Source: a virus
Direction: 5' to 3' (one strand)
IMG/VR virus record: IMGVR_UViG_3300023178_003744
Span: 1-64,000 of that record
Length of the DNA: 64,000 bases
Below, in pieces: positions 9,200-38,310 of this stretch (positions within the stretch are counted from its first letter, which is position 1; the number at the start of each line of letters is the position of its first letter). The position numbers and the translations under genes are program-made. The notes beneath the pieces are model-generated. The model saw only the letters and a program-made list of their open reading frames with translations, made no database searches and was not told the origin of the DNA.

Positions 9200-10567
9200 A
9201 TGGCTTTACAACTAAGACGCGGTACTGACGCTGAGCGTTTAACAATTACACCTGCAGAAGGTGAATTAATATATACTACTGATACGAAGTTAATATATGT
9301 AGGCGACGGCAGTACACTAGGGGGCACAAAAGCCGATAGTGGTATTACTGATTTACTTTCAGATAGCTCTCCGCAGCTAGGTGGTAACTTAGATCTAAAC
9401 TCACAAACTATTACTGGCACCGGCGCTATTAATATTACTGGCAATATTAATGGTAACACAGTAGCAGGCAGTAGTGGTAACTTTACAAGCTCAGTAATTG
9501 GTAGTTTACAAGCAGCAAGCATTCAAGGTGATCTAACTGGATCTGTATTTGCCGATGACTCTACAATGCTTGTAGATGGTACTGATGGCAAAATTGTTCT
9601 TGTAAACAATGTAATTCAAGATTTAAGTAATGTTTATGTGCCCGTTACACCAACCGGCGGCGATGCTCTTATATGGAATGCAGTAGACAGCCGTTGGGAA
9701 GCTGGTAATCCTGCTGCAAGCGGCGGTACATTTGTAGGCGACGTCAAAGGCAGTATATTTGCAGACGATAGTACTTTAGTTTTTGATGCTATCAATAACT
9801 TAATAACTGTTCCTAGTATAGGTACAACTAATATATTTCCTCGAGATGCTAATGGTATTTCAATTGTAGGATTTCCGTCGGTTACTAATAAATTTTATTT
9901 GCAAGGTCAAGAAATACGTAGTCAGCAGATATTTGCTAGAACTACAACCGAAGATATAGAAGGTGAATATGTTGCATCGGGATCAACACATGAATTTGTA
10001 AACGGTACTCCGAGATCAATAGGTTCAATAACATTCCAAAAATTTGACGGGGTTGAGTTCTTCACACACGGAGTAATCGAAGGATTGAGTCACCGCATGG
10101 TACTAGCACATACAGCTAGTGCAACTGAACAACCTCCAATTTCTAAGCAATTCAGATTGATAGATGGATTTTTTGTTTTTGGTGATGCAGATTTTAGAGA
10201 AAAATTAAACGTTGGCGGCTCGGTATATTTAACCGGTGAAGTTACCGCTGACCAAGGTGTTCGTGCAAACATTATAGGTGATGATTCTGCTGTGATTTTA
10301 AATTATACAACAGGAGCTATAAACGCTAGCACAGTTACTGGTGACTTAAAGGGTAGTGTTTTTGCCGACGATAGTACTGCAATTGTAGACAGCATTAACC
10401 AAACTATAACTGCTGGAGGATTTGTGCAGTTTGGCTCATATAACACTACAGAACGAAATGCTCTTACTGCGGCAAATGGAATGGTAATATACAACTCACA
10501 AGTCAATAGATTTCAAGGTTATCAAAATGGTGCGTGGATAAACATCGACGACGGAACTGCGGCTTAA
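9200..10567 (+). CDS. Mtd-like tail fibre / receptor-binding structural protein
   Basis: The 455-residue protein starts with a domain resembling the N-terminus of the major tropism determinant family (LQLRRGTDAERLTITPAEGE, IYTTDTKLIYVGDG), then a Gly/Thr/Asn-rich beta-repeat region with SPQLGGNLDLN, typical of phage fibres. A motif G-D-x-x-G-S-(V/I)-F-A-D-D-S-T recurs three times (near residues 113, 185 and 388), with a degenerate copy near 361. The C-terminus (YNTTERNALTAANGMVIYNSQ) is a common fibre head-binding end. It is transcribed from a late box. Its end overlaps the convergent gene by four bases. Confidence 0.75.
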   Translation: MALQLRRGTDAERLTITPAEGELIYTTDTKLIYVGDGSTLGGTKADSGITDLLSDSSPQLGGNLDLNSQTITGTGAINITGNINGNTVAGSSGNFTSSVIGSLQAASIQGDLTGSVFADDSTMLVDGTDGKIVLVNNVIQDLSNVYVPVTPTGGDALIWNAVDSRWEAGNPAASGGTFVGDVKGSIFADDSTLVFDAINNLITVPSIGTTNIFPRDANGISIVGFPSVTNKFYLQGQEIRSQQIFARTTTEDIEGEYVASGSTHEFVNGTPRSIGSITFQKFDGVEFFTHGVIEGLSHRMVLAHTASATEQPPISKQFRLIDGFFVFGDADFREKLNVGGSVYLTGEVTADQGVRANIIGDDSAVILNYTTGAINASTVTGDLKGSVFADDSTAIVDSINQTITAGGFVQFGSYNTTERNALTAANGMVIYNSQVNRFQGYQNGAWINIDDGTAA

Positions 10568-11442
10568 CAGTACCCTACATTCTTAGGTGGCTTAATCGGC
10601 GGCAATGCAGGTGGCCAGCCTGGCCAAGCTGGCCCTACTTGTAAAAAAAGTTCTGCTTCGTTGGTTTCTAATACATCAAAATACAATGTGTATTCCTGTC
10701 CTTCAAAAGAAAATTTTATATCAAATTTTTCTTCAGTTTTTCCGTAAATAAATCCATCTTCGTAAAAAACACCTGTCGGTAGAGGACTAATGTCTATTTC
10801 ATGAACATTGCCATCGAATAATTGAAATGCAAATAGTTCGTTTGGTTGGATATTTAAAATATCATTATTATTATGAATTAGTCCTGACATATTGTGTAAT
10901 CCTTGTTTATTATATTTATGCTTATACAAATGATACTTGGCTAATAGTAGACTGTTAGATGATTTACTCCTAAAATATACTATATTTTGATTCATAGTGT
11001 TTAACATTTTAATAATTTTTTTATCTGATTTTTTTGCTACTATCGTTACATTAGAATGCATTGCAAGTGCAAGATAGTTTAACTGTTTTTTATTAGGAAA
11101 GCTTACATGTAGCTGTTCTTGATCAAATTTATTTAATAGTTTTGCTAGCTTTTTATCTAAATAAGATAATCCAAAAGGCATGTAAATAGGATATTTTATT
11201 TCATGATTTATAAATTGGCTTAATAAATTAAATAAACTTTCATTGTTAATATTGATGTTATAGATAATAATTGGATAATTTAGTGTAGTAAAAGATTCAG
11301 CAACTTTAATAGTGTGAGAATTTAAATAATTTGTATAAGAATTCCTTACTGATATTTGGCCTACTCTGTGTATTTTATTTAAATTTTTAGTGTCACGTAA
11401 AACACTTATATTATCAATTATAATTGCTAGTTTTTTATCCAT
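10564..11442 (-). CDS. unknown protein with a Trp/Pro-rich C-terminal tail
   Basis: I prefer the ATG at 11442, which overlaps the upstream stop as ATGGATAA, to the ATG at 11460. The protein is about 292 residues. The N-terminal half alternates hydrophobic strands and Lys/Asn helices, like a Rossmann-type or sugar-enzyme fold, but no motif is secure. The last 24 residues are unlike the rest: a Gly/Ala/Trp/Pro repeat (VGPAWPGWPPALPPIKPP) ending in GYC. The corresponding DNA (10590-10640) is strikingly GC-rich. It is the downstream partner of the PP-loop gene. The tail could be a structural extension or a modification target. Confidence 0.6.
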   Translation of the reverse strand: MDKKLAIIIDNISVLRDTKNLNKIHRVGQISVRNSYTNYLNSHTIKVAESFTTLNYPIIIYNININNESLFNLLSQFINHEIKYPIYMPFGLSYLDKKLAKLLNKFDQEQLHVSFPNKKQLNYLALAMHSNVTIVAKKSDKKIIKMLNTMNQNIVYFRSKSSNSLLLAKYHLYKHKYNKQGLHNMSGLIHNNNDILNIQPNELFAFQLFDGNVHEIDISPLPTGVFYEDGFIYGKTEEKFDIKFSFEGQEYTLYFDVLETNEAELFLQVGPAWPGWPPALPPIKPPKNVGYC

Positions 11443-12250
11443 AAACGTTCGAGTTTCCATATGCCCAATGCTTCACTGCCATTTTCTTTTTTGATGATTT
11501 ATGATTATTTCGTAGTATCGTATCGTATGGTTTTCCGTATTTTTCTTTAAAATGAATTTTATATTCCTTAAATCCTGTCCAAGAGTTATCTTGTTGTATA
11601 ACGGGTAGTCCGAGATCATTATAAAGCAAAAATTTCTTTGTATACATATTTGCATTCTTCATGTTGTGTACGTTTGATTTGATTATTTGCTTTTCAACTT
11701 CAAATTCTAAAAAAAAGAAAGGAAACAAATTAACCATATTGTTACTTTCTTTATATCTATATAGAACAAGTTCATCGTACGAAATCCAATTATATAATTT
11801 ATAACCGTATGTATCCTGCCATAATATAGGTGCAGATGGCAGTAGAATATTATAGTCAGGAAAATGTTTTACAGCATAATCAATAATATGTAAATGTACT
11901 GCAAATTGAGGACTTGTGCATCTATATAGGTTAAAATATTCTTCTGTAATATTTTTTTCCATGTATAATTTATCTAAATCTAAATATAATTTATGATCTA
12001 TTTGTAGTTGTTCTGCTGTTAAATTATCATATTTATTAAAAAAATTTTTCTTACTACCGTCTATGCAGTATTTGGCAAATAAAGTTTCTACGTGTATATT
12101 ATTATTTTTTAAAAATAATGTTAACGCCTGTGAATCAATTCCACCGCTAAATAATACTAAATTTTTTCTATTTGCAATTTTTGTAAGATCGTACTTTTTT
12201 TCCTGAATAATACATATCTCAATATCTGATTTCGATAAAACTTTTAACAT
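11435..12250 (-). CDS. PP-loop ATP pyrophosphatase (QueC/asparagine-synthase-like)
   Basis: SGGIDS at residues 35-40 is the PP-loop that binds ATP and adenylates a carboxylate or carbonyl before amide or thio transfer. The 271-residue protein is longer than a bare QueC domain and lacks the C-terminal Cys cluster found in the other two PP-loop proteins of this window, so it is closer to asparagine-synthase-like amidotransferases. A conserved-looking Lys/Gly C-terminus (FKEKYGKPYD) follows. Substrate unknown. The start ATG lies 4 bases from a perfect late promoter box on the minus strand, so its mRNA should be leaderless. Confidence 0.7.
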   Translation of the reverse strand: MLKVLSKSDIEICIIQEKKYDLTKIANRKNLVLFSGGIDSQALTLFLKNNNIHVETLFAKYCIDGSKKNFFNKYDNLTAEQLQIDHKLYLDLDKLYMEKNITEEYFNLYRCTSPQFAVHLHIIDYAVKHFPDYNILLPSAPILWQDTYGYKLYNWISYDELVLYRYKESNNMVNLFPFFFLEFEVEKQIIKSNVHNMKNANMYTKKFLLYNDLGLPVIQQDNSWTGFKEYKIHFKEKYGKPYDTILRNNHKSSKKKMAVKHWAYGNSNVYG

Positions 12251-12254
12251 GTTT

Positions 12255-12262
12255 TATTTATA
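12255..12262 (-). promoter_or_regulatory. T4-type late promoter box (TATAAATA), minus strand
   Basis: A perfect TATAAATA reads on the minus strand, four bases before the ATG at 12250. A start at the usual distance (5-6 bases after the box) would coincide with the start codon. Confidence 0.75.
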
Positions 12263-12263
12263 G

Positions 12264-12271
12264 TATAAATA
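12264..12271 (+). promoter_or_regulatory. T4-type late promoter box (TATAAATA), plus strand
   Basis: A perfect TATAAATA, one base from the minus-strand box at 12255-12262, forms a back-to-back divergent pair. The GTG start of the acetyltransferase follows after four bases. Confidence 0.75.
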
Positions 12272-12275
12272 TCTT

Positions 12276-12716
12276 GTGATTATAAAAAAAATTACATTTA
12301 ATACTGCATTACCTTTCTTAAAAAATCTATGGCCTACTACAAATAACATTTTACCAGCAAGTAGCATGCAGTATCTAGGTGGAAATGATATAACTATTTA
12401 CGAAAAATTTGAACCTAGTTTTTTTGGGATGTATAATAATACAGAGATTATAGGTGTAGTATCTGGTCATAAATCTTCCCAAGAATACTATAGAATGCGA
12501 GGATTATGGATCAATGAATTTTATAGAAAAAAGGGATTAAGTAAAAATTTGTTTATTACTATCGAAAACCAAGCTTTAAATGAAAATTGTAATTTTTTAT
12601 GGAGCTTTCCTAGACACGAAGCAATAAAAGCATATGCATCAAATGGCTTTGTACAAACTAGTAAATTTTTATCAACATCATATGGATTAAATTGCTATGC
12701 ACTTAAAAAACTTTAA
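12276..12716 (+). CDS. GNAT-family N-acetyltransferase
   Basis: The GTG start is four bases after the late box, so the transcript is likely leaderless. The protein is 146 residues, the usual GNAT size. The core is visible: beta-strand 4 (IIGVVSGH, about residues 59-66), the acetyl-CoA pyrophosphate-binding motif A (GLWINEFYRKKGLSKNL, an R/K-x-x-G-L turn near 77-93), and the C-terminal SNGF-Q segment typical of motif B. It probably acetylates a small amine or amino sugar. The gene is part of a plus-strand cassette in an otherwise minus-strand region, overlapping the following oxygenase by 20 bases. Confidence 0.7.
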   Translation: MIIKKITFNTALPFLKNLWPTTNNILPASSMQYLGGNDITIYEKFEPSFFGMYNNTEIIGVVSGHKSSQEYYRMRGLWINEFYRKKGLSKNLFITIENQALNENCNFLWSFPRHEAIKAYASNGFVQTSKFLSTSYGLNCYALKKL

Positions 12717-13278
12717 CTTTACTCCGCCATTTTATACAGTACTAGATGTCTTAACTGATAGAGAGTGCTTGTTTTTAGAAAAATATCTAGCATTATCTGA
12801 CGATCAATTACAAACAGCTACTATTAATAGTAATAAAAAACCATCCGACGAGCGTAAAAGTTTAATAAATTTTCATAAATTTAATAATTCAAAAAATAAA
12901 TGGATATTTGAAAAAATTAATAATAGTGTTTTACATGCAAATCATAATTTTTGGAACTATGACTTGCACGGATATGACTTTTTTCAATATACTGTATATA
13001 CTACAGAGAATTCTCACTATAATTGGCATAATGATATCGGAGATTACAATAGCTTTTTTGGTGAAAGAAAAATAAGTATTAGTATTTTAGTAAATGATGA
13101 GTTTACTGGTGGCGTATTCAAAATTAATAACTTAAATCGTAATCAAGAAATAGATGTTACGTTAAAAAAAGGTCAAGCTATAATTTTTCCTAGTTTTGTA
13201 CCGCATTGCGTAACACCAGTTACTGCCGGCACACGAAAAAGCGTGGTAGCTTGGATTTGCGGTCCGCAATTTAAATAA
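12697..13278 (+). CDS. 2OG-Fe(II) oxygenase, prolyl/PKHD-hydroxylase-like
   Basis: The 193-residue protein has a textbook iron facial triad: His111-x-Asp113 (NWHND), His170 (FVPHCVTPV), and the 2-oxoglutarate-binding Arg180 in GTRKSVVAWICGP, which is the PKHD/Fe2OG signature ending. GGVFKI near residues 138-143 is the conserved turn before the second half of the barrel. Family members hydroxylate proline or other carbons. The substrate cannot be deduced. It pairs with the GNAT gene in one plus-strand unit and faces the minus-strand oxygenases across an 84-base gap that holds a tiny reading frame. Confidence 0.8.
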   Translation: MHLKNFNFTPPFYTVLDVLTDRECLFLEKYLALSDDQLQTATINSNKKPSDERKSLINFHKFNNSKNKWIFEKINNSVLHANHNFWNYDLHGYDFFQYTVYTTENSHYNWHNDIGDYNSFFGERKISISILVNDEFTGGVFKINNLNRNQEIDVTLKKGQAIIFPSFVPHCVTPVTAGTRKSVVAWICGPQFK

Positions 13279-13362: not shown

Positions 13363-14046
13363 TTATATTAATACATTTTTTAAATCGTTTATACCATCCG
13401 AATGCATTGCTATGAAAAACTGATAGGTTTCTTTGTCAACACAAGATCTTGCTCCGTGAATTATATTTGTGTCTATAACATATAACCTACCTGCTTCAAT
13501 TTCAAAATCTTCAAAGTCTTCTACTTGCGGATTCATGCTTTTAACATCTCGAGGATTAGATCGTCTACGTTGCTTATCAAATTGTATCTTAACTTTATCA
13601 GGTTCAGTTGTTCCCCATAGACGTAGTATAGGAGAAGGCATCCATGTGTCTGTATGTGGCCAGAAAAATGATTCTGCATCCCAGCGTAATATTGCACTCC
13701 TTACCATGTGCTTCTTAATAGGTTTAAGTACAGCAAATGCACTTTCGTCTAATACTTCTGTTGAGACTGTAGCATCGGCGTCTAGGAAAAATTTTTCTGG
13801 GCGAGCACGAATCCATTCATCTAATGGATAACATATTGGCTCTGGATTGTTAAGCATACTGCCGTTTTGATTTACCAATGGTAAGCCATATCTTGGCAAG
13901 TGAGCCTTTTCTTCTCCCCACTTTCTAAAAGCATACTTATACTTTTTCATACATTCATAAAAACTGTCTACATCAAAAACCATGCTAGTTTTTTGTAGTA
14001 CTGTAGGATGAAAGTCTATATATTCTTTTTCTTCGAGCATGTTCAT
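13363..14046 (-). CDS. 2OG-Fe(II) oxygenase, beta-hydroxylase-like
   Basis: This 227-residue protein carries His131-x-Asp133 (FFWPHTD) and His197 (DTNIIHGARSC) as iron ligands within a jelly-roll pattern; EIEAGRLYVIDT is the strand before the distal His. The WPHTD sequence and the long N-terminal segment suggest the aspartyl/asparaginyl or phytanoyl-type branch. A clear 2OG-binding Arg is not obvious after the distal His; Lys205 is possible. The gene overlaps the oxygenase upstream by four bases, so two hydroxylases are translated together. Substrate unknown. Confidence 0.65.
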   Translation of the reverse strand: MNMLEEKEYIDFHPTVLQKTSMVFDVDSFYECMKKYKYAFRKWGEEKAHLPRYGLPLVNQNGSMLNNPEPICYPLDEWIRARPEKFFLDADATVSTEVLDESAFAVLKPIKKHMVRSAILRWDAESFFWPHTDTWMPSPILRLWGTTEPDKVKIQFDKQRRRSNPRDVKSMNPQVEDFEDFEIEAGRLYVIDTNIIHGARSCVDKETYQFFIAMHSDGINDLKNVLI

Positions 14047-14627
14047 ATAATTGATGTTACTAAATGTATTCTTGATTCTGTGCTTGCATTAAAAGCAGTA
14101 TGATACTGAGCTGTATTAGTAAGCCACCAAGTATTAGCAGGCATGTGTACAACTTCGTTTTTTATAACCATTTTGCACCCTATATTAGTTTCTATAGGAT
14201 AGTGCAATCTTGTATCAGCATCGTTATGCCAAGTTAAACAGGTTTTAGGCCTCATTAACATCAGTCTCATTCGACCTATTGTAAATTTATCAGATACCGC
14301 ACGATAAATTTTTTCAAAAACTGTACCTTTAAATTGACTGCATAGATCAGTAAAATCTTTTTCATTTTTTGGCACTTTATAAGGTTTTGGTACAAATTTA
14401 ACTGTTTTACCGTTTTCGTCAAACACCTCGTGTCCATTTTGCCAATCCCAGATTAAACTGCCGGATCCGTAATGTATATCATCGGGACGATCTTTTGTAG
14501 TGTTAAGACAAATTTGACTGTCTCTTTTTTCCCATGATATTATTTCATTATCTATTAAATTGTCTAATTCTTCTGTAACATCTAGTACAGGTAAATCAGT
14601 TAGGTTTTTAAAAAATTTATATTTCAT
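14043..14627 (-). CDS. aspartyl/asparaginyl beta-hydroxylase-like 2OG oxygenase
   Basis: The 194-residue protein matches the aspartyl/asparaginyl hydroxylase pattern: RLMLMRP-K-T (strand), WHNDAD with His134 and Asp136, LHYPIETNIGCKM (the conserved His-x-Pro-x-x-x-Asn), PANTWWLTNT, His176 (YHTAFN) and Arg186 (SRIHLV). Known relatives hydroxylate Asp/Asn side chains or free amino acids. The AATAAATA box 8 bases upstream of the ATG may give it its own late start. It is followed directly by another 2OG oxygenase. Confidence 0.75.
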   Translation of the reverse strand: MKYKFFKNLTDLPVLDVTEELDNLIDNEIISWEKRDSQICLNTTKDRPDDIHYGSGSLIWDWQNGHEVFDENGKTVKFVPKPYKVPKNEKDFTDLCSQFKGTVFEKIYRAVSDKFTIGRMRLMLMRPKTCLTWHNDADTRLHYPIETNIGCKMVIKNEVVHMPANTWWLTNTAQYHTAFNASTESRIHLVTSII

Positions 14628-14635: not shown

Positions 14636-14643
14636 TATTTATT
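14636..14643 (-). promoter_or_regulatory. possible late promoter box (AATAAATA)
   Basis: AATAAATA on the minus strand, overlapping the end of the upstream radical SAM gene and ending 8 bases before the ATG at 14627. It is weaker than the other boxes because it overlaps coding sequence. Confidence 0.4.
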
Positions 14644-15751
14644 TCTTGCGTTTGGGTATCTTGCTATCAGCTGAACTAACACAACTTTCAGTAATACAAG
14701 GTTTTGCACTATCAAAAAGTTTAAATCCAGTTTCTATATTGCCCAGGGGAGCATCATGACAGCTGTAGCTGCGCTTTACACTACCGTCAGGTTCTCTAAT
14801 AATAATACCGCTATAGCCAGCATTGCAGCTCCATCCTTTAAATTTATTGAAATCAAATGCATTAAATCTTTCAGCTTGATCCATATACCATTTTTTACCT
14901 TTGGAATCTGTAAATTCTACTTGCATATGCCACGGTACACTTTTATCATTTTCGCCTATTGCATATGAAGGTAGTTCGAAATTAGGTTTAGGTCTATTAG
15001 CCCACTTGCGCTTTACTTCAGTGTATGCCATTTGCGGCATACCGTTCCAAAGCCGCTTTAAGTCTTCTTCTTTGTAACCTTCGACCACACGTGATGCAGT
15101 AGGATCTGATTGTGGTTTAAGGGTAACATTGATTCCTTGTTCGTGGAAGAACAGTGCGTTTTCCCAGTCCCTTTCAAACCATTCTGGAACCATAACCATG
15201 TTAATAGTAACTTGGACATCGTGTTCTTGACACAGTACAAGCTTATTAGCAAAGTCCTGCATCTTCTCGCGGGTATTTAGATGCTCTGTATGTAAACTAG
15301 CAGTAATACTAGCACGGTGGAACGGCTTTGCGTATTCTACATATGTCTCAAACCACTTCATAGGTCGAGAGCAGTTTGACGTCATATGAATACTTGTGTA
15401 ATTAGTGTTATCAACGTCGTCAGCGAGATATTTAAGTATGTCAAGATAACCGGGATGAAAAGTAGGTTCACCCCCACTAAGGCTGAAATGAAAGCTATTA
15501 AATCCATTGCCCCGAGCTTGTCGTTTAATTTCATCTATTGTCCTCAAGCATAGTTTAGTCGGTCTGTGATCTTTTTTATCACTGCGAGCATAAGGCCAGC
15601 AGTAACTACAACGATAGTTACAGAAGCGTCCTAGTAACCAGCTTACTGTGAACAAGTCTCTGTATAGTAAAGTACGCTGCCCTACTTGTATTATATCATC
15701 AAATGGTATTTTTGTAAAGTCGTAATCTGACCATTTTAAATCTTCGGACAT
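14639..15751 (-). CDS. radical SAM protein with C-terminal cysteines
   Basis: The 4Fe-4S motif C44-x3-C48-x2-C51 (FCNYRCSYCWP) and SLSGGEPTFHP (SAM-binding GGEP) identify a radical SAM enzyme. The C-terminal third carries a second group of cysteines (GWSCNAGY, SYSCHDAP, KPCITESC), consistent with a SPASM/twitch-type auxiliary cluster site. In order and spacing it parallels the radical SAM protein at 18886-20088, and the two are paralogues. SPASM enzymes often act on peptides, but some act on sugars or small molecules. The ATG follows a GATAAGTA late-like box by five bases. Confidence 0.8.
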   Translation of the reverse strand: MSEDLKWSDYDFTKIPFDDIIQVGQRTLLYRDLFTVSWLLGRFCNYRCSYCWPYARSDKKDHRPTKLCLRTIDEIKRQARGNGFNSFHFSLSGGEPTFHPGYLDILKYLADDVDNTNYTSIHMTSNCSRPMKWFETYVEYAKPFHRASITASLHTEHLNTREKMQDFANKLVLCQEHDVQVTINMVMVPEWFERDWENALFFHEQGINVTLKPQSDPTASRVVEGYKEEDLKRLWNGMPQMAYTEVKRKWANRPKPNFELPSYAIGENDKSVPWHMQVEFTDSKGKKWYMDQAERFNAFDFNKFKGWSCNAGYSGIIIREPDGSVKRSYSCHDAPLGNIETGFKLFDSAKPCITESCVSSADSKIPKRKK

Positions 15752-15756
15752 GAAAA

Positions 15757-15764
15757 TACTTATC
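15757..15764 (-). promoter_or_regulatory. late-like promoter box (GATAAGTA)
   Basis: GATAAGTA on the minus strand (one mismatch to NATAAATA), five bases before the ATG at 15751. This is the same box-to-start distance as the perfect boxes at 12255 and 25063. It overlaps the end of the upstream gene. Confidence 0.4.
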
Positions 15765-16410
15765 CAGTAATTAAATTCCTAATATATTTTGCTTGCCATT
15801 TTAATCCTTCTTCACCAAAATGGGCACCTTTGTCAACTATATATTCGTGAAATAAATCATCACCTAATACCTCTTCAATACACAGTACATTATGATCATA
15901 GTATTTTTTATATGTACTATATCCCCCAAATGTTTGGAAAAATGTTAAATTAAAATTATTTCTTATTGCTTCGAAAGTATTACTGAATTCTAATTCACTT
16001 TCTATTGTAGGAATTATTTTTAACCTGCTTTTGTAAAAATTCCTAATTTTCAACGGTCCTTTACTTGTAAGTTTTGGTTGATAAGTTATTGCATGAGATT
16101 CACGATCAAGCCAAAGCCCCCAATAATTTGACAATTCCTTTTTTAAATATTGCATTGGATCTATTATTTCGGGCATGTAGGTCCATCTCCATGCAGTCGT
16201 TCCCTGAAAAATGTGATATGTAGGTTCGTTAATTTTTTTTGATAAATGCATTATCAAAGCTGAAGAAAAATGTATGCTAGAGCCAGCATAAGAAAAATTA
16301 TAAATTTTCCAAGATGGTTCTAATAAAGCTAACTGTTTTGGCCAATTATCAAAATTATTAATGTGCGGTTGGCCCCAACTCCAACTACAACCATAAACAT
16401 GTATTCTCAT
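15760..16410 (-). CDS. SGNH/GDSL-like hydrolase
   Basis: The N-terminus MRIHVYGCSWSWGQP fits SGNH block I (here G-C-S instead of G-D-S, as in many phage members). The C-terminus has block V as VDKGAHFGEEGLKWQAKYI, supplying Asp and His of the triad. The protein is 216 residues, normal for the fold. SGNH enzymes are esterases or deacetylases, often acting on acetylated sugars, which fits a glycan role but does not prove it. The start ATG directly abuts the stop of the FkbM-type methyltransferase. Confidence 0.65.
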   Translation of the reverse strand: MRIHVYGCSWSWGQPHINNFDNWPKQLALLEPSWKIYNFSYAGSSIHFSSALIMHLSKKINEPTYHIFQGTTAWRWTYMPEIIDPMQYLKKELSNYWGLWLDRESHAITYQPKLTSKGPLKIRNFYKSRLKIIPTIESELEFSNTFEAIRNNFNLTFFQTFGGYSTYKKYYDHNVLCIEEVLGDDLFHEYIVDKGAHFGEEGLKWQAKYIRNLITG

Positions 16411-18264: not shown

Positions 18265-18277
18265 AAATATATTTATT
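18262..18277. promoter_or_regulatory. divergent late promoter boxes
   Basis: CATAAATA at 18262-18269 (plus strand) and AATAAATA at 18270-18277 (minus strand) abut back to back. The minus box is five bases from the ATG at 18264. The plus box is 20 bases from the ATG at 18290, with AGGA in the leader as a Shine-Dalgarno. Confidence 0.55.
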
Positions 18278-18289
18278 ATAGGAAAATAT

Positions 18290-25092: not shown

Positions 25093-25096
25093 TTTC

Positions 25097-28455: not shown

Positions 28456-28466
28456 TAATCGCTTCC

Positions 28467-28482
28467 AATAAATATATTTATG
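28467..28482. promoter_or_regulatory. divergent late promoter boxes
   Basis: AATAAATA at 28467-28474 (plus) ends five bases before the ATG at 28480. CATAAATA at 28475-28482 (minus) serves the gene starting at 28455, with a 19-base leader. The minus box overlaps the start codon of the plus gene. Confidence 0.55.
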
Positions 28483-30355: not shown

Positions 30356-31278
30356 AATTTTATCTTCTTACGTACTAGTGTATTATATAATTTACAATTA
30401 AATAATTCTTTATCACTATTTGCAGTTAGATTAACAATACGTATTTTTTTTGTTTCGCATTCTTTAATTCTTATATCGGGATCTATATGAAAAAATAATT
30501 CCCAAAAATCAAAATTTTGATACATAATATCTTTATCAAGAACTTCGATATAAACTTCATTCTTAGGAGACTTTGTTTTCATATCAGTTACAAAATTATT
30601 ATTTACTAAAACTTTTTTGCTTACAGGATTTATAACTTCTAGCCCATATTCTAATAGATACTCTCTGTAATTACATGAACTAGGTCTGCTTTCACTTTTT
30701 CTAAACCAATCATCATATCCGTTATCATCCCTAAAACTAGACAAACCGTGCCAGCTTATTTCTAAGCGTTCTTTATTACGTATTTGCACACTAATATCAT
30801 TACCAAAATTAGATATAATTTCATCTTGATTTTTAATTTGTGTGTAACTAGTTTTTTTGATAGGTTTTGTACTTTTTGTTTGCTCAAGAATTGGCACTGT
30901 GTCTAAATTTAAATATCTAGCTATTAATAATCGTTTATTACCGGGGTGCACTGCTTCATAAAACTTTTGAATAGGCATAAAAATTCCGTTTTGATCAATG
31001 TCAGTTATAATAAAATTACATAAATCAATTGTTCCCTGTAGCCATAATTCAAGTTTATGATACATAGATAGCATTCTATAATCTAGGTTGCTATATAAGT
31101 TTCTAAGTCTTCGACTCGGCATATAGTCTGCAAACGCACTAGGAATATTATTTAATTTTTCTAATTTATATTCCGGATATATAAAAAAATTATAATTTTG
31201 AAAAATGTAATTCAAAGCAGCATTGTCTGGCCATCTAGGTTTTTCTGACAAATTATCTTGCAAAGTTTTTAATTTCAT
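30352..31278 (-). CDS. ParB/sulfiredoxin-like nuclease-fold protein (tentative)
   Basis: The 308-residue protein contains FYEAVHPGNKRLLIARYLNL (about residues 106-125), which looks like the HPGxxR/K motif of the ParB-like/sulfiredoxin fold used to bind nucleotides. A long charged C-terminal region follows, with no second motif. ParB-fold proteins act as nucleases, CTPases or regulators; phage members are mostly uncharacterised. The assignment rests on that one motif and is tentative. It overlaps the flanking genes at both ends. Confidence 0.45.
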   Translation of the reverse strand: MKLKTLQDNLSEKPRWPDNAALNYIFQNYNFFIYPEYKLEKLNNIPSAFADYMPSRRLRNLYSNLDYRMLSMYHKLELWLQGTIDLCNFIITDIDQNGIFMPIQKFYEAVHPGNKRLLIARYLNLDTVPILEQTKSTKPIKKTSYTQIKNQDEIISNFGNDISVQIRNKERLEISWHGLSSFRDDNGYDDWFRKSESRPSSCNYREYLLEYGLEVINPVSKKVLVNNNFVTDMKTKSPKNEVYIEVLDKDIMYQNFDFWELFFHIDPDIRIKECETKKIRIVNLTANSDKELFNCKLYNTLVRKKIKF

Positions 31279-32357
31279 TATTTAAATTGCTCCGAAAAAG
31301 GATCAAATTCCTTACCACACTTCATAGCACAGACTTTCAACTTTCCAGCTTTGCAACTAGGTTTATTCCAACTTTCTTCTATGTTGTTAAATATACCTGT
31401 ATCAAATACCGCCTTTAATCCGTGTTTTTTTGCACTGATAGCATCTTTTCCACCAACACTTTTTATAAAATCCCATACTTGTTCAACTTTTGGATCTTTA
31501 TGCCACCATTTATACATACGACCTGCGGTCCAACAACACGGCATAGCAAGACCTTCTGCTGTAATAAACAAGCTGCCTTCGTCTTTTACCTTACAAAATA
31601 TTTCAGCTTGATCATAATATGCATCCATCGTACCGTGTTTTTGTTTGATATCGTCATATTGCTTAATAGCTGCATTTTGATACTGTGCGTTAGGTTTTTT
31701 TAATTCAGCAGTTTTATTTCCTTTACGATCCACTGCTTGGTGTGTTTCCTTTTTTTCGCTTTTTGCACTTATAAATCTACCAGTTTTCTTTGCAACAAAT
31801 CTTTCAAAACCTATTTTTTCACTTAATAATTTGGCTTGTTCTACTTGATGTTGATTATGCTCAAATATTAAAAAATCCCATCGGCTACGGCCGCCTGCAT
31901 TTGTAAATGCTCGCATACTGCGTTCTACGTTATCCCATACTACACCTTGACGATAGATATGATTAGTATCGGACATTCCATCTACACTAAAAATAACAGC
32001 GCCCATACGACCAAAAGTTTTTGCAAGTTCCTGCCACCATGCTTCGTCTCTTGCACCTGCATTTGTATTCATTGATAACCACATTTTAGAATTGTGTTTT
32101 CTAAAATATTGAAATATCTCAAGTGTATCCCGTGCAACAATAGGGTCGCCTAGGTTGCCACACATGTACATAGTGTTTAATTGTTGGATAAATTCTGGTT
32201 TAAAAATACGCTTGCAATCATCAAGTGTTAATTCGCTAAGATCGATATGTGGATTTATTGCGCCACCGTTTTGGTTACGATCACACATTGGACAACTTGC
32301 CTGACAATTTTGTGTATTTTCTAAGTGTATGGTTCGTATATTTTCATACTTGTACAT
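31278..32357 (-). CDS. radical SAM protein with C-terminal SPASM-like domain
   Basis: I chose the ATG at 32357, which overlaps the stop of the PP-loop gene (TAATG), over a TTG at 32402 inside that gene. C18-x3-C22-x2-C25 (NCQASCPMC), GNLGDPIV, and a SPASM-like C-terminus (FCKVKDEG, MPCCWTAG, SCKAGKLKVCAMKCGKE) make it a close paralogue of the gene at 27436. The two share extended segments such as the Asn-x-x-Gly-x-Arg and Trp-Trp-x-Glu-Leu motifs. It is paired with the QueC-like gene upstream. Confidence 0.8.
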   Translation of the reverse strand: MYKYENIRTIHLENTQNCQASCPMCDRNQNGGAINPHIDLSELTLDDCKRIFKPEFIQQLNTMYMCGNLGDPIVARDTLEIFQYFRKHNSKMWLSMNTNAGARDEAWWQELAKTFGRMGAVIFSVDGMSDTNHIYRQGVVWDNVERSMRAFTNAGGRSRWDFLIFEHNQHQVEQAKLLSEKIGFERFVAKKTGRFISAKSEKKETHQAVDRKGNKTAELKKPNAQYQNAAIKQYDDIKQKHGTMDAYYDQAEIFCKVKDEGSLFITAEGLAMPCCWTAGRMYKWWHKDPKVEQVWDFIKSVGGKDAISAKKHGLKAVFDTGIFNNIEESWNKPSCKAGKLKVCAMKCGKEFDPFSEQFK

Positions 32358-33022
32358 TAGTAGTGACCAAATCCCCAGTGTTTCTCTCTGCATGACCAAC
32401 AATCTTTACAAATTACTGACCAATTTTCTGTAAAAACTTCACAACTACGAGTTTCAGGTAATAAGCTGTCTAACACACCTAAAGATTTATACAGCTCTTG
32501 TACACCGCGTTTATCAATATTGATTAAAGGTCGAAATGATCTAACCCCATAACGTTGTGGTTTTTTATGATGTTTTTTCTTTTTACGACCTTTATCGTAA
32601 ATATGTTTGCCGTCATATAGTTCGGGTGCTTTCTTTTTACTAGGATTTGCAGTCAAACCTACAAAATGTGCTTGTATTTTTTTTTGTTTATACAAATCCA
32701 TTACTATATCGCTCATATCTCCAATGTAATTGTTCGCAGCGTCTGTTCTTATTGTGCCTATAAAATGCTCACCAAAATTAACACCTGTAAGTTCTGTAAT
32801 TTTATTCATTACTCTTTTTGCATAAACTTCTTGAAATGGTTTATTTTCTGCTATACAACTTATAGGGTGAATAACAGTATCGGAACGTTCTTCTTTTACA
32901 TACAATGCAAGCATATAACAAACTATAGCACTATCAATACCGCCGCTAAGTTTAATACCTACTTTTTTAACAAATTTTGAAAATTCTATATTAATGATAT
33001 CTTGTTTATTATAAAATTCCAT
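32357..33022 (-). CDS. QueC-like PP-loop ATPase
   Basis: SGGIDS is at residues 26-31 and the zinc-type cysteines C194, C205, C208 and C211 (TRSCE, ICKDCWSCREKHWGF) reproduce the QueC C-terminal cluster. The protein is 221 residues, very close to QueC. The substrate loop contains an unusual Lys/His-rich patch (KGRKKKKHHKKPQR, about residues 144-157). It is directly coupled to the SPASM-type radical SAM gene downstream. Making preQ0 together with the distant QueE-like enzyme is one option; amidating the product of its neighbour is another. Confidence 0.75.
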   Translation of the reverse strand: MEFYNKQDIINIEFSKFVKKVGIKLSGGIDSAIVCYMLALYVKEERSDTVIHPISCIAENKPFQEVYAKRVMNKITELTGVNFGEHFIGTIRTDAANNYIGDMSDIVMDLYKQKKIQAHFVGLTANPSKKKAPELYDGKHIYDKGRKKKKHHKKPQRYGVRSFRPLINIDKRGVQELYKSLGVLDSLLPETRSCEVFTENWSVICKDCWSCREKHWGFGHY

Positions 33023-33024: not shown

Positions 33025-33246
33025 TTATTCCAAAATCAACTTAATGTCTTTTCCTGGCCCAATTTTACTAGGAAGGTCGCCATATGTATCCACATACCAT
33101 TCAATAACTGCAATATACCAGTTATGACTATTGTGATGTGCTTTTTTATTAAACTTATGTATGTTATTATTAGTAGCTTGCATAGTGCTCAAAGCACGAG
33201 CACTTTCTTTTTGCAAATCTCTAACGCTTAGATTACTTATATCCAA
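33025..33246 (-). CDS. small hypothetical protein, 73 aa
   Basis: The start overlaps the large glycosyltransferase fusion by 14 bases and it ends three bases before the PP-loop gene. It has a helical N-terminus (SVRDLQKESARALSTM), then a His/Asn-rich turn (KAHHNSHNWY) and a short helix IAVIEWYVDTYGDLP. It has no known motif or membrane segment. Tight operon packing makes it likely to be expressed; the function is unknown. Confidence 0.55.
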   Translation of the reverse strand: MDISNLSVRDLQKESARALSTMQATNNNIHKFNKKAHHNSHNWYIAVIEWYVDTYGDLPSKIGPGKDIKLILE

Positions 33247-35836
33247 TTCTCATAAACCTTGTATAACCTTCTAAATTTAATTCATCTGAAAACAGTACAT
33301 CCGACATTGGCGTTTGTGATTCAAACTGTTGTAAATTACTCGATCTATTAATATGCTCATCTATTTTCAAATCATTACTTTGTAATATTAACAACTTTCC
33401 TTGTGGCAATCTATCATACCATAAAGTAAAGTTTTCTATATGTTCACAGCTTGTATTAATAATTGTGTCCGGTCTTGCTTCTAAAGTTACTTCTCTATCT
33501 TCTTGTGCTGTTAAAGTTTTAAATTCAAAAAAGGAATAATCAATGTTATGTATATCCATTGTCTGTGCTTTAAACTTCCAATCGCCTGCTACTATATCTT
33601 TATTAAACAGTTCTGCAATTTTCCAGCAAGTAGGATCACTATCAAAGCTGTACATTTTAGTAAAATCTACACCATGCTCTCGTAATAGCGGCACAACTGT
33701 TGCATACCATCCAGCACATAAAAATACTATACCTAAATTTTCTATTGCGTCTAATGACGACACTGTATTTGCTAACCATTTTTTACTTAATATTTGTCCT
33801 CGAGAGAAGCAATCAAAATTAAAATTTTCATTATCTTTTAATTTTTTCAAAGGCTCTACAAATAAGCTACTTGTGTATTTTTCTAATATACGCCATAACG
33901 CATGATAGTTGTTAGACAATAAACTAAATTCATCTTTTAAATCAGGCAATAACCTAGATAAACTGTATAAGTTATTCTCTAGTACAGCTTTCCGTAAGTC
34001 ATCATTTTCTGTCAATTTAAAAATACTGGACAAATCATGATCGTTGTACATACGCCTTACATTTGAAATTTGTCCTTGATACAATATTTCAAATCTATCT
34101 AGTGTATCAATAATGTTCATAGACTTAGGTATAATTACACTGCTTTTAATTTGACTTTCTATACCTTCATCTAACGATACCACTGCTTCTTGCTCTGGGT
34201 ATTCTATATTATCAAATGTATTGCTAGGCACAAACGCAACAGATTGAAACTTTGCGTGTAACCATTCAAAATCATTTATTTTCTTTAACTTTTCGGGATC
34301 TGTTTTATTACTTTTTCCGTAATTTCTACCTTCATTAGCACCTTTTAAAATCCAATCTTTCAAAGGTCCTTCGGCATGCGTACACCAAGTTTTAAGTCTT
34401 TCTTCGGTTTCATTATCTTTTTGACGGTCGATTACTTTGCTTGCTAACTTAACACATTCTCTAAAAGCACTACGCCAAGCACTAAATTCATCTACTGCAA
34501 AATTTGTTAAATTACTTACAGTTGGCATAGGCTTAAATTTAGAACTTATGCTTGTAGTCATATCAGTTTTTGATATATCCATATGTTCTGTAAGTGCACG
34601 TGGCAACAGCTTTACACCACCGTAGCCATACTCTAGACCGTTAATTGGGTTTTTACTTCTCCATACCTTTACATAGTCTTTTTCGTTTTCAGGAGTAATA
34701 TAATCAAAGTTAAAATCATCAACAATAGTTGCGTCGCCGTCTACTACCCAAAACATATCAGAATTAACTTGTTTTGCAGCTTCTATGTGTGCTTGATGAA
34801 TACCTTCTATACCGTGTACTCTTTTTGCTCTAGGAAAACGTTTTAACAATTCGTCATAATTTTTATCTGCTTCGGGTTCATCGTAGGTTATCATTACTAT
34901 ATCATAATGGCTTTTTTCTGTTTTCAAATACTTATGGCCGATACGAGGCGGGTTAACGTACATGCTCTTAAACATTTTGCTTTGATCTTCGTTATATACA
35001 TCTAACGGTACATCCATGCTGAGCTCATTTACTAAGTGTTCTCCAAGGATTTCCATTTCGTATAAAAGATCTTCTTCGCCCATTTTAGAATATGTGTCAG
35101 TCCACATCTTATTAACATATTCAAAATCACGGACATTAACATAATCCCAATCAGTGCAATTTGTAAGATAAGTGCCAAGGCGGGCACCATACATTGCCCA
35201 TATACCATTATCTACATCTAATCCTACAGTTTGCCAAATACGTAATCTGTCCATGTTTTTCTTGTGTATTTTATGAAAATTAGCAAGATCTACTTTTTCA
35301 CCTTCTCTTAGAGTCATTTTTACGCCTTCTCTAAATCCAGCACGCCATGCTTGATGCGGAGTTGCATTGTTGTATACTGTACTACATACTCTATCTATCT
35401 GGCAATATTCTACATCCCAGCAAAAGTCTACTTGAGCTTGGATATTATTTGGATCAGCTGACTCGTGTGTTTTCATATTTTCGATTATATGTTTTGGCCA
35501 TGACTTGATGCCGCCGTTACCGTACACTAATCCATTAATTATATTCCGACCGCTCCAACTTACAACACTGTTTTCTAAGTCAACATGATCTTGAAAAACA
35601 AGTTCTTGATTTATAAAGTCGCCGTTGATTACATTATCAGCATCTACAATAATTAATCTTTCTGTATCAGATAATTTTGCACATGCTTTATGTGCAGCAT
35701 CAGAACCTTCAACACCGTGCACCCGTTTTGCCCATGGTATTTTTTTAATTAAATCATTGTAATTTTTTTCTGCATTAGGCTCATCATAACTTAAAAAAAT
35801 CACGTCATAATCAGCAGGTTTCAATATATTAGTCAT
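33233..35836 (-). CDS. fusion: two glycosyltransferase-like domains plus methyltransferase-like domain
   Basis: I chose the ATG at 35836 over a TTG at 35842. The protein is 867 residues. Two repeats start with a D-V/I-(I/V)-F/M-x-(S/T)-Y-D-E-P motif (near residues 10 and 312), each with KRVHG and then a DxD (VDADNV at 64-69; VDGDAT near 365), suggesting two GT-A-like domains that bind a nucleotide sugar through a metal. Both repeats carry a shared INGL-x-YG-x-GG segment. The last 230 residues contain GIVFLCAGWYATVVPLL and YSFDSDPTCWK, which read as motif I and II of a SAM methyltransferase. Co-action on one glycan is plausible but inferred. Confidence 0.7.
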   Translation of the reverse strand: MTNILKPADYDVIFLSYDEPNAEKNYNDLIKKIPWAKRVHGVEGSDAAHKACAKLSDTERLIIVDADNVINGDFINQELVFQDHVDLENSVVSWSGRNIINGLVYGNGGIKSWPKHIIENMKTHESADPNNIQAQVDFCWDVEYCQIDRVCSTVYNNATPHQAWRAGFREGVKMTLREGEKVDLANFHKIHKKNMDRLRIWQTVGLDVDNGIWAMYGARLGTYLTNCTDWDYVNVRDFEYVNKMWTDTYSKMGEEDLLYEMEILGEHLVNELSMDVPLDVYNEDQSKMFKSMYVNPPRIGHKYLKTEKSHYDIVMITYDEPEADKNYDELLKRFPRAKRVHGIEGIHQAHIEAAKQVNSDMFWVVDGDATIVDDFNFDYITPENEKDYVKVWRSKNPINGLEYGYGGVKLLPRALTEHMDISKTDMTTSISSKFKPMPTVSNLTNFAVDEFSAWRSAFRECVKLASKVIDRQKDNETEERLKTWCTHAEGPLKDWILKGANEGRNYGKSNKTDPEKLKKINDFEWLHAKFQSVAFVPSNTFDNIEYPEQEAVVSLDEGIESQIKSSVIIPKSMNIIDTLDRFEILYQGQISNVRRMYNDHDLSSIFKLTENDDLRKAVLENNLYSLSRLLPDLKDEFSLLSNNYHALWRILEKYTSSLFVEPLKKLKDNENFNFDCFSRGQILSKKWLANTVSSLDAIENLGIVFLCAGWYATVVPLLREHGVDFTKMYSFDSDPTCWKIAELFNKDIVAGDWKFKAQTMDIHNIDYSFFEFKTLTAQEDREVTLEARPDTIINTSCEHIENFTLWYDRLPQGKLLILQSNDLKIDEHINRSSNLQQFESQTPMSDVLFSDELNLEGYTRFMRIGYK

Positions 35837-36338
35837 TCTCAAAACTCATAGGTAAATTTTTCTTTGTAAAGATACTTATTGGTACATTAATTTTATCTGA
35901 AATTTTTATTTCAATACAGCGCTTTTCAAATAGCTCGTTTACGGACAAAGTTATAGTATCAAGTAAATTATGTGGTGAATTTTTTTCAGTTACATAAAAA
36001 ACTATCCAACTGCTAGTAACAGATTCAATATCTGCTTGGTCCGTTAAAGTAATTTTTAAAATATTATCTACTTTTGTGATTATTATTGTACTATCTGCAT
36101 TATTTTTTACATTCACAAAACTTTTATAGCTAACAGTAAAATTATTGATTGCTTTTTTTTCTACTAGGCAATATACATCATGTATTTTTTGAACTTGAAA
36201 ACTGTGAAGATTAACTTTTCCTTCTACAAAATCTACATATTGCTGCTTGCTTACTTCCAGTAAATCTAAAGTGTTGTCATGAAAATTGATACATCCTAAA
36301 ATAGTTCCTGTATTTTTGTCAAATTTTAGATAAAACAT
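35829..36338 (-). CDS. hypothetical beta-rich protein, 169 aa
   Basis: Alternating hydrophobic strands (NFTVSYKSFVNVKN, TIIITKVDNILKITL, SSWIVFYVTEK) suggest a beta-sandwich domain. There is one Cys near each end and no enzyme motif. Start and stop overlap both neighbours (8 bases with the fusion gene), so it belongs to the glycosyltransferase operon. A carbohydrate-binding or structural adapter would fit the fold pattern, but this is a guess and I do not recognise the family. Confidence 0.55.
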   Translation of the reverse strand: MFYLKFDKNTGTILGCINFHDNTLDLLEVSKQQYVDFVEGKVNLHSFQVQKIHDVYCLVEKKAINNFTVSYKSFVNVKNNADSTIIITKVDNILKITLTDQADIESVTSSWIVFYVTEKNSPHNLLDTITLSVNELFEKRCIEIKISDKINVPISIFTKKNLPMSFEND

Positions 36339-37144
36339 CAGTCATCTAGCCAATCTTTAATATCATCATTAATAAAATTATCTTCTACATAGTGTAAAAA
36401 TTGGTGTTGTTTATAATTATTAATAAAAATTCCATCAGCACTTGCATAGTACATCAAACTTTCAGTCCAACTTTGAATGTTTCGAACTCCTTGCAAAGGT
36501 GTTTTCATGTGAACTAGATTAAATTTATTTTTATCTAATTTAATATTGCATAATTTAACACACATTGCTGCGGCGACATCTATACTGCAAAATTCTTGTT
36601 TTTGCTTAGGAGTGAATATGTTAGCAAAATCATCAAAATTATCTACTATTAATTCTAAATTATCAAAAAAGTTATCATTTGTTTCATTTTTTTCAAAGTA
36701 AAAAAATGCACTGTAAATGTTAGGTAAATTATTTGCTAAAAATACTTTCCTATGCTTATAATCTTGGATGATCTTACGCCCTCTATGATTTACAATTTCT
36801 GTACTAAAATATAATTTAGTATCTTGTAACTCATCCCATATATTAGATAAATTACACAATACCAACACATCTGTGTCAAAAACTATAGTACGATTGTACG
36901 GTGTTAATTTGTAAATAAGCTTCCTATTATTAATTCTCCACTCATTAATTTCAGTTAAATCATTTTCAATTGGAATAATTTTATCAAACAAATGTATTTT
37001 TTCATCAGGCACTTTATCGTTAGTAATAATACTTATTTTTTCGTCTTTACTAAATTTTTTTATACTTTGGGCTAGATAGCAAGCTTGCAATACATAGTTA
37101 AATTTAGTATTATTTTGTGCTACTACACACACTCCTTTATTCAT
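36338..37144 (-). CDS. glycosyltransferase, GT8-like
   Basis: I start the gene at the ATG at 37144 (AAGGA Shine-Dalgarno, 8-base overlap with the upstream stop) instead of 37162. The paralogue next door begins at exactly the same alignment position. MNKGVCVVAQNN is followed by YLAQSIK and IVFDTDVLVL, where Asp-Thr-Asp serves as the DxD of a GT-A fold, and a C-terminal His (NLVHMKT) may be the distal metal ligand. The protein is 268 residues, typical for GT8. It would transfer a sugar from a nucleotide donor; acceptor unknown. Confidence 0.65.
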   Translation of the reverse strand: MNKGVCVVAQNNTKFNYVLQACYLAQSIKKFSKDEKISIITNDKVPDEKIHLFDKIIPIENDLTEINEWRINNRKLIYKLTPYNRTIVFDTDVLVLCNLSNIWDELQDTKLYFSTEIVNHRGRKIIQDYKHRKVFLANNLPNIYSAFFYFEKNETNDNFFDNLELIVDNFDDFANIFTPKQKQEFCSIDVAAAMCVKLCNIKLDKNKFNLVHMKTPLQGVRNIQSWTESLMYYASADGIFINNYKQHQFLHYVEDNFINDDIKDWLDD

Positions 37145-37979
37145 TTGCAAAGTCCTTGTCAATAATTTTATCTAACTCAAACTTATTCATTAAATGCACA
37201 TTGGTATTTTTCATTACATGTAAATTATAATCACCTCTATTATTAGACAATACTTTAATAGTACTGTTGTCTATTGATAACGGTATGTCTACATCAAATG
37301 AATTATACAGTGTATAAGGCAGGTCGACTACAGTTTTACTTTCAGTAAAACCATTTATAATATGTGCTGCAATACTAAATGCATAATCATTTCTAAATTT
37401 TGTACTTGTAACATTAAACAACGACCGATAGTAACTCCAATTATCTCTTACAAAGCCTACTAAATCAAAAATATTTTTTGCTAAGTTGCTTTTTTTGAAG
37501 TATACTACCGTTGCCCAGTATAAAGGAATACTAGCCTTAGATACTCTACCTTGTTTAACTTGAGGTACTGTGTCTGCAAAGTCTTTATATGCTTTACCAA
37601 TACATATATCATTGTTACTTTGAAAAAGATTTAATAAATTAGAATTAGCAATAATAAAATCTGTGTCAATTAACAATGTTTTATCGTAAGGGGTCAGTGT
37701 ATAAGCATCTACTCTATTAGAATTATGCCATAGATCTCTAATCTTAAGTGATCCTTGCGTAAATGTACGATAATTCTCAAAATCGGGAGTATTTGTAACT
37801 ACAATATTATCTACATACTTAGAATAAAACGGATATTTTTGAAAATTATCTGTATCGTTTGTAACAACAGTTACAGGTAATTTTAAATATCGTTTTACAC
37901 GCTTGGCACAGTATATTGCTTGTTTTACATAGTCAACTGTTTCATTATTAATTGCAAACAATAATACTCCGCTAGACAC
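37137..37979 (-). CDS. glycosyltransferase, GT8-like (paralogue of the next gene)
   Basis: GTG start at 37979 with an AGGAAC Shine-Dalgarno, overlapping the previous gene by 8 bases. MSSGVLLFAINN aligns with MNKGVCVVAQNN of the adjacent paralogue, and YDKTLLIDTDFII supplies the Asp-Thr-Asp. The C-terminal NLHVMKNTNVHLM segment probably contributes the second metal ligand (His). The protein is 280 residues. Tandem duplication followed by divergence is evident: the start, the DTD motif and the YVxQAxYxA helix are shared. Confidence 0.65.
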   Translation of the reverse strand: MSSGVLLFAINNETVDYVKQAIYCAKRVKRYLKLPVTVVTNDTDNFQKYPFYSKYVDNIVVTNTPDFENYRTFTQGSLKIRDLWHNSNRVDAYTLTPYDKTLLIDTDFIIANSNLLNLFQSNNDICIGKAYKDFADTVPQVKQGRVSKASIPLYWATVVYFKKSNLAKNIFDLVGFVRDNWSYYRSLFNVTSTKFRNDYAFSIAAHIINGFTESKTVVDLPYTLYNSFDVDIPLSIDNSTIKVLSNNRGDYNLHVMKNTNVHLMNKFELDKIIDKDFANE

Positions 37980-38310
37980 TTTTGTTCCTAATTAAATCGG
38001 CAATATTATCATAATCAGCTTTGTACTGTTTTAAAGCAACATTATAGGTATTCCAAACTATATGATAAAAGTCATACAAGTTAGTAACACAGATTGGTAT
38101 ATTATCGTTGTCAAGAAAGACTGCGTCTTCTTCATCTTTAGACAAAAACAAGCCGATTTGTCGCACTAATTCAGCATCAGCTGTGAAGGCGCCGCCGTTA
38201 TAATACACTTGTAATTTTTCTAAAAACTTATCGTATATGTAAGCTCTTTGTCTATTGATTGATTCTAAATTTTTACTAGCTTCTAAAGCTTTAACTAATC
38301 TTTGATCCAT
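37972..38310 (-). CDS. conserved marine-phage protein, 112 aa
   Basis: First gene of the glycosyltransferase operon. It is helical at both ends with a central strand (VFLDNDNIPICVTNLYDFYHI) and contains FYHIVWNTY. I recall homologues in T4-like marine phages next to tail genes, without a function. It has an excellent sigma70-like promoter whose -10 is six bases from the ATG, so the transcript is probably leaderless. The downstream genes follow with short overlaps. Confidence 0.65.
   Translation of the reverse strand: MDQRLVKALEASKNLESINRQRAYIYDKFLEKLQVYYNGGAFTADAELVRQIGLFLSKDEEDAVFLDNDNIPICVTNLYDFYHIVWNTYNVALKQYKADYDNIADLIRNKSV

Follow-up and report, generated by a model that had tools for sequence, protein, structure and literature searches.

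A conserved island of eleven radical SAM genes beside the fibre genes of an uncultivated marine phage, with a proposed role in glycan tailoring

Radical SAM genes and their conserved setting

The window analysed here, 64 kb of the 77,223-base IMG/VR record IMGVR_UViG_3300023178_003744, contains a phage enzyme island (positions 10564–38310) in which eleven radical S-adenosylmethionine (SAM) genes lie among genes for glycosyltransferase-like proteins, oxygenases and other enzymes. The genes, named here by their first position in the window, are tightly packed: adjacent genes overlap in 21 of 29 pairs and lie within 30 nt in 27 of 29, and the minus strand encodes 25 of the 30 genes. An earlier reading made from the letters alone (the sequence-only reading) had described this end-to-start overlap, counted eleven radical SAM genes and called seven of their products twitch-type, and all of this held up.

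All eleven radical SAM open reading frames (ORFs), which span 14639 to 32402 within the island, match Pfam PF04055, 28480 doing so below the curated cut-off, and a motif check found an intact CxxxCxxC in 11/11. The seven twitch-type proteins are exactly those that exceed the cut-off of the NCBIfam family NF033640 (N_Twi_rSAM, here N-twitch; 195–426 bits over the full length against a curated cut-off of 170). Besides 22248–23645 (minus strand; 1.2e-127), they are encoded at 17116–18264 (minus; 9.7e-73), 20085–21398 (minus; 3.6e-110), 23642–25057 (minus; 2.3e-95), 25097–26356 (plus; 8.7e-67), 26340–27446 (minus; 2.7e-57) and 28480–29805 (plus; 2.3e-70, with SPASM and Fer4_12 matches as well). 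To our knowledge, this twitch-domain subfamily is defined by sequence and has no assigned function or reaction. The most constant member of the island, 22248 (mean column identity 81%), belongs to a conserved core, whose other radical SAM members are four minus-strand genes identified by Pfam: 14639–15751, last in the core order and 75–91% identical among phages, 18886–20088, 27436–28455, with a C-terminal SPASM domain, and 31278–32402. In both 27436 and 31278, CGxLGDP replaces GGE(P). Searches of the PDB with the single sequences of 27436 and 23642 gave no match, while profile searches gave weak and mixed radical SAM matches (22248 to SkfB, 14639 to anSME), so no reaction can be assigned to these proteins on that basis.

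Towards the nearest fibre genes lie six further minus-strand genes, among which those for the 73-aa protein, the GT-A/methyltransferase-like protein and the GT8-like pair also count as core. The first encodes a 73-aa three-helix protein with no known relatives (33025–33246), the hallmark of the system. It is followed by a protein with two GT-A-like domains and a C-terminal methyltransferase-like domain (33233–35842), a small protein (35829–36338), two GT8-like proteins with a DxD motif (36338–37162 and 37137–37979) and a 112-aa protein adjoining the fibre genes (37972–38310). The sequence-only reading had counted three glycosyltransferase-type genes, none of which has a Pfam match over the cut-off; a direct Pfam search of the window's record for GT8 was likewise negative, hence the name GT8-like. 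What stands is a glycogenin (GT8) profile match for the family of 36338 and 37137, in which DxD is invariant, and a GT-A-like fold for the 33233 type, whose domain model (pLDDT 88) has GT-A enzymes as its top PDB matches in Foldseek (E 5e-4, TM about 0.3). Both are modest as evidence of the glycosyltransferases that a surface polysaccharide cluster should contain. Repeats of about 20 aa, of the type DLRKAVLEENLHSIFRLL, occur in variable number in the methyltransferase-like protein encoded upstream of the 73-aa protein; they were seen in the C-terminal part of 33233–35842 and in two related loci (L024:6305-7438 and L035:4784-5824).

The 73-aa protein is near-invariant and, in loci found with it as bait, always encoded beside the core. 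It is confidently predicted to form a three-helix bundle and is conserved from end to end, without a split into leader and core. Foldseek gave no significant match for its model, and the fold is not winged-helix-like, so a role as carrier, recognition element for ribosomally synthesised and post-translationally modified peptides (RiPPs) or toxin-like protein cannot be assigned to it.

When used as baits, single island proteins recovered the same block from many viral contigs: 242 with 22248 (the best 80 at 80–100% identity), 232 with the 73-aa protein, at least 586 with 14639 and 170 with 18886, although loci overlap between baits and these counts are not independent samples. Among cultured phages, 22248 had remote matches in three records only, and the 73-aa protein had no match in those searched. 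Three GTDB bacterial matches of the 73-aa protein, on contigs of metagenome-assembled genomes (MAGs), were rejected as cellular because those contigs show phage gene order. Every locus of 18–20 kb or more has a minimum of four to six radical SAM genes, and whole records hold 5–22. The order 33025, 31278, 27436, 22248, 18886, 14639, together with strand, is kept in all testable pairs (for example 74/74 and 34/34). Read from the fibre genes, the shared architecture runs through the 112-aa protein, the GT8-like pair, the small protein, the GT-A/methyltransferase-like protein and the 73-aa protein to 31278, 27436 and 22248, then variable genes, 18886, further variable genes and 14639. Recovery in fixed order from hundreds of contigs by independent baits places the block beyond chance, and homologues in these neighbourhood searches were not scattered singly, which agrees with the single pathway proposed in the sequence-only reading. 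Median dN is 0.13–0.36, while most dS values are saturated or could not be computed, which indicates that purifying selection rather than recent transfer explains the conservation. In a diverged branch, to which a 353-kb contig belongs, much of the architecture and the radical SAM genes persist, but the 73-aa protein is missing.

The T4 late-promoter core, ATAAATA, occurs within 45 nt upstream of 7/8 divergent gene starts in the island against 1/22 tandem starts (Fisher p 3e-5), and over 145 loci at 101/242 divergent against 63/1795 tandem starts. This enrichment is positional only, as the late-promoter consensus TATAAATA shows no enrichment across the window (8 found, 16 expected). Late-promoter motifs at divergent starts, taken together with established T4 biology, make it likely that the island is expressed together with the structural genes. 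The divergent pairs stand only 24–39 nt apart, with opposed late-promoter motifs in the four gaps: 12251–12275 (25 nt, two opposed ATAAATA), 18265–18289, 25058–25096 (one motif) and 28456–28479. At many starts ATAAATA lies 11–12 nt before the start codon, a spacing that would give leaderless or near-leaderless transcripts.

Accessory enzymes, flanking genes and the source phage

Outside the core, the accessory enzymes vary strongly between phages. In the window, Pfam bears out three assignments of the sequence-only reading: the GNAT acetyltransferase (12276–12716, plus; PF00583, 2.6e-10), the FkbM-type methyltransferase (16410–17174, minus; PF05050, 1.4e-10, and TIGR01444) and the nitroreductase-like protein (18290–18889, plus; PF00881, 2.7e-5). 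Of the four 2-oxoglutarate (2OG) oxygenases proposed there, two have Pfam matches (12697–13278, plus, a 2OG-Fe(II) oxygenase, PF13640, 1e-14; and 14043–14627, minus, of the Asp/Asn hydroxylase type, PF05118, 3e-11). The other two (13363–14046 and 29798–30355, both minus) are possible members by an HxD...H motif seen by eye, with no Pfam or NCBIfam match. A possible SGNH hydrolase (15760–16410, minus) likewise has the motif, and Pfam gave no confirmation of it. The minus strand further encodes a protein of unassigned accessory type at 30352–31278.

Three PP-loop ATPases had been claimed, and SGGxDS is present in 3/3. Two of them, 32357–33022 (minus; Pfam and motif) and 21398–22258 (minus; motif), have QueC-like cysteines, of the Zn-binding type in 32357, while 11435–12250 (minus; Pfam and motif) has a QueC-like N-terminus without the Zn cysteines. 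In a related locus (L037:12544-15036), a homologue of 21398 and an N-twitch radical SAM form one protein; this 830-aa fusion with a QueC-like PP-loop domain belongs to a group of six members and is direct evidence that the two activities are coupled. At the island's other end, 10564–11460 (minus) encodes an orphan protein that terminates in a Pro/Trp-rich tail, GPAWPGWPPALPPIKPPKNVGYC. We considered this Pro-rich C-terminus as a substrate peptide and dropped it because the gene is missing from related loci.

Across the loci, radical SAM-like proteins make up 754 of 2057 distinct flank proteins. The accessory pool further includes PP-loop proteins (67 loci), short-chain dehydrogenase-like proteins (38), nitroreductases (36), AMP-ligases (28), pyridoxal phosphate (PLP) decarboxylase-like proteins (18) and UDP-sugar dehydrogenases (12), as well as proteins of the fatty-acid desaturase, Trp halogenase and B12-radical SAM types; AspH-type enzymes also occur in sister islands. 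A Trp-halogenase family protein (PF04820, 3e-67) is encoded at L164:3369-4787, within a phage enzyme island.

The island is flanked on one side by a block of five minus-strand fibre or structural genes (38349–45142), of which 40320, 41883 and 43034 have PHROG tail-fibre or virion matches; 39330 has no PHROG match, and 38349 was assigned through its similarity to 39330. On the other side lies a fibre-like gene (9200–10567, plus) assigned from its sequence, with no PHROG match. A neighbouring 5046-aa protein matches phrog_10938, and 60937 has a baseplate-wedge match in PHROG. In adjoining sequence, gp6, gp25, gp5, gp53 and gp54 (baseplate) and gp46/47 were identified by eye. The closest cultured relatives of gp5, gp46 and a CobS-like ATPase are Pseudomonas jumbo phages of the PA5oct/Paride type, gp46 being also close to those of Sinorhizobium phage Phosso and Agrobacterium phage Atu_ph07, and the same three proteins did not show a pelagimyophage or cyanomyophage backbone. 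A 275-kb record shares this backbone and has the island at the same site. From these backbone genes and the 275-kb record, the source is placed as an uncultivated marine jumbo-type myovirus of the T4 superfamily, not a pelagimyophage or cyanophage. The backbone genes thereby refined the setting first assumed, which was the tail region of an ordinary marine phage.

Polysaccharide-associated relatives and the proposed function

N-twitch proteins are rare among the bacterial genomes sampled. At E<=1e-40 they were found in 3/398 Pseudomonadota genomes, 2/385 genomes in one class and 2/369 in another, counts that include two phage-contaminated MAGs. Three of the four apparently genuine bacterial loci lie among polysaccharide or sugar genes. 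In one (L184), four N-twitch genes share a polysaccharide cluster with a WbsX glycosyltransferase, TylF, RmlD and a Wzm-type permease, and a single ORF (L184:8579-11143, minus) joins an O-antigen exporter ATPase (ABC_tran), Wzt_C and an N-twitch radical SAM domain; the others neighbour GT2 (L185) or GT2 and an NAD-epimerase (L206). Cultured phages show a similar association. In Vibrio phage K566 (L173, 14600–33242) at least five N-twitch radical SAM genes are interleaved with GT8-, GT4- and GT1-like genes near PagP, and in the cultured SAR11 phage Mosig of Pelagibacter (L174, 7271–25089) an enzyme island bounded by fibre genes and by VrlC holds radical SAM, 2OG, nitroreductase, GT8, aminotransferase, carbamoyltransferase and epimerase genes.

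These bacterial loci, K566, Mosig, the GT8-like profile and the GT-A-like matches lead us to favour, at a probability of roughly 0.55, a late-expressed module that would assemble and tailor a glycan on the fibre or the envelope, as the first of three hypotheses in the sequence-only reading had it. That hypothesis has now gained independent support from the bacterial and cultured-phage neighbourhoods of the N-twitch family. UDP-sugar dehydrogenases within sister islands, the fixed order adjoining the fibre genes, the late-promoter motifs at divergent starts and the radical SAM array of Aeromonas phage 332-Vera (see below) point the same way. Sugars would be attached to an acceptor, or lengthened on it, by the GT-A protein together with the GT8-like pair. 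Fixed radical reactions on that sugar, or on what carries it, would fall to the core radical SAM proteins (31278, 27436, 22248, 18886 and 14639), and the swappable N-twitch proteins, PP-loop amidation or activation, 2OG hydroxylases, nitroreductase, GNAT and FkbM enzymes would introduce changes particular to each phage, so that every lineage would have a surface chemistry of its own. As acceptor, the neighbouring fibre protein would be most likely and the host envelope second. A hydrophobicity scan of the 2057 flank proteins found no membrane flippase, polymerase or ATP-binding cassette (ABC) exporter: only seven had at least three hydrophobic segments, six of them of the desaturase family, while a Wzm control scored six segments. 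The lack of membrane export parts and the neighbourhood of fibre genes would suit a cytosolic acceptor such as a fibre better than a surface polymer. What the sequences show directly is the gene content, its conserved order under purifying selection, the late-promoter motifs and the association of the N-twitch family with polysaccharide genes; a glycan as substrate, the single reactions, the acceptor and the benefit are inferred. A more specific version, which we put forward tentatively, is that the fixed radical SAM core and the invariant 73-aa protein, as carrier or scaffold, build a radically modified glycoconjugate installed on the fibre from a late operon with swappable radical SAM/PP-loop modules. 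This would be a new class of phage biosynthetic system and a strategy on which unrelated phages may have converged.

Several observations weigh against glycan tailoring. There are only four apparently genuine bacterial contexts, one of which (L207) is without glycan genes, and no sugar-nucleotide synthesis gene is recognisable in the window. The PDB searches found no solved structure close to the island radical SAM proteins, and the top matches of the GT-A-like domain are ThuS/SunS peptide S-glycosyltransferases, at low TM. The 73-aa protein could be a scaffold or a substrate, and the Trp halogenase, PLP decarboxylase and AMP-ligase of sister islands would suit amino-acid or peptide chemistry equally well. 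Peptides are the usual substrates of SPASM enzymes.

Modification of a peptide or protein is a serious rival, possible though not what we expect: radical SAM/SPASM enzymes would cross-link, epimerise, methylate or hydroxylate the fibre or the 73-aa protein in a RiPP-like manner, and the glycosyltransferases would glycosylate the product. The SPASM and twitch domains of the island, the habit of SPASM enzymes, the S-glycosyltransferase matches, the weak profile matches to SkfB and anSME, the near-invariant 73-aa protein always found beside the core, and the Trp halogenase, B12-radical SAM and AspH-type enzymes of sister islands all fit it. This second hypothesis of the sequence-only reading has nevertheless been weakened, as the 73-aa protein is a folded bundle conserved throughout rather than a leader with a core, and the diverged branch retains radical SAM genes without it. 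No RiPP precursor with a leader and variable core was found, the 73-aa ORF being the only conserved small one (ORFs under 45–60 aa were not systematically searched); Pfam scans of the window showed no PqqD-type recognition domain, Pfam and hydrophobicity scans no exporter, and the bacterial N-twitch relatives sit with polysaccharide genes.

A small-molecule pathway, its product a metabolite or cofactor that is soluble or secreted and serves in host takeover or against competitors, would account for the natural-product-like pool (AMP-ligase, halogenase, PLP decarboxylase, B12-radical SAM, desaturase), but is unlikely given the site beside fibre genes, the late-promoter motifs, the glycosyltransferases in the conserved core and the missing exporter. 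We consider deazaguanine-type modification of phage DNA or RNA, the third hypothesis of the sequence-only reading, very improbable. It draws on the QueC-like PP-loop proteins and on a QueE-like radical SAM gene, which lies outside the island (328–1221), on that side of the window which is non-structural and encoded on the opposite strand. However, canonical QueC gave one marginal match over the cut-off, QueD was found in 1/15 records, most of these records being fragments, the island radical SAM proteins are not QueE, and late-promoter motifs head the island transcripts; it is the near-absence of QueC and QueD and these motifs that disfavour it. Accretion, at a hypervariable site, of unrelated accessory genes that share no pathway would explain why accessory genes differ so strongly between phages, and is the least probable of all. 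It is largely refuted by the conserved co-occurrence: all four baits retrieve the block, core order and strand are kept in every testable pair, and dS is saturated at a dN of 0.13–0.36.

If glycan tailoring is correct, the island represents an unrecorded phage radical chemistry that would vary the receptor-binding or host surface with up to about 20 uncharacterised enzymes per genome. Its most abundant family, the N-twitch radical SAM proteins, is rare among the sampled bacterial genomes.

Comparison with known radical SAM arrays

The sequence-only reading had stated that no known phage function needs so many radical SAM steps. This stands as far as function goes, but arrays of comparable size are on record. 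The Campylobacter phages CP220 and CPt10 encode 11 or 12 radical SAM proteins, five of them in an exchangeable module, and the available text speculates on a role in host metabolism (Timms 2010, PMC2853527). They resemble the island in radical SAM number, but have a glycine amidinotransferase of their own, and the relative found is a radical SAM protein of only 24% identity. An uncultivated marine T4-like genome from Tara has 12 radical SAM genes, treated in the text available as a demand for Fe-S clusters (Nishimura 2017, PMC5332604); its likeness to this phage is one of setting and gene count. The host recognition cluster of pelagimyophages and cyanomyophages, as described in Zaragoza-Solas 2020 (PMC7029224), is hypervariable, contains glycosyltransferase and radical SAM cassettes and has a giant baseplate protein and tail-fibre genes as neighbours; O-chain modification is proposed there from the glycosyltransferases, and the radical SAM genes are not interpreted in the parts available. 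It shares fibres, glycosyltransferases, radical SAM genes and variability with the island, which differs in its fixed core with the 73-aa hallmark and its PA5oct/Atu_ph07-like backbone. Aeromonas phage 332-Vera has eight radical SAM genes in a tail-fibre cluster (2025, PMC12390700) and, compared by description, shares such an array with the island, but is phiKZ-like. As far as their available text goes, these open-licence papers of 2010, 2017, 2020 and 2025 offer no tested function for phage radical SAM arrays.

Mosig (EXVC030M, MT647606) has a similar enzyme mix by its fibre genes, but lacks the 73-aa protein, encodes only three radical SAM proteins and shows only remote similarity. Seven island proteins belong to NF033640, a family that is itself rare in the sampled Pseudomonadota. 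Called "highly unusual" since 2010 and left without a function, phage radical SAM arrays can now be described as a defined system in hundreds of aquatic viral genomes, with cultured analogues in Mosig, K566 and 332-Vera. As the arrays themselves were already known, what appears new is the conserved core, the 73-aa hallmark, the late promoters, the lineage and the link to polysaccharide genes.

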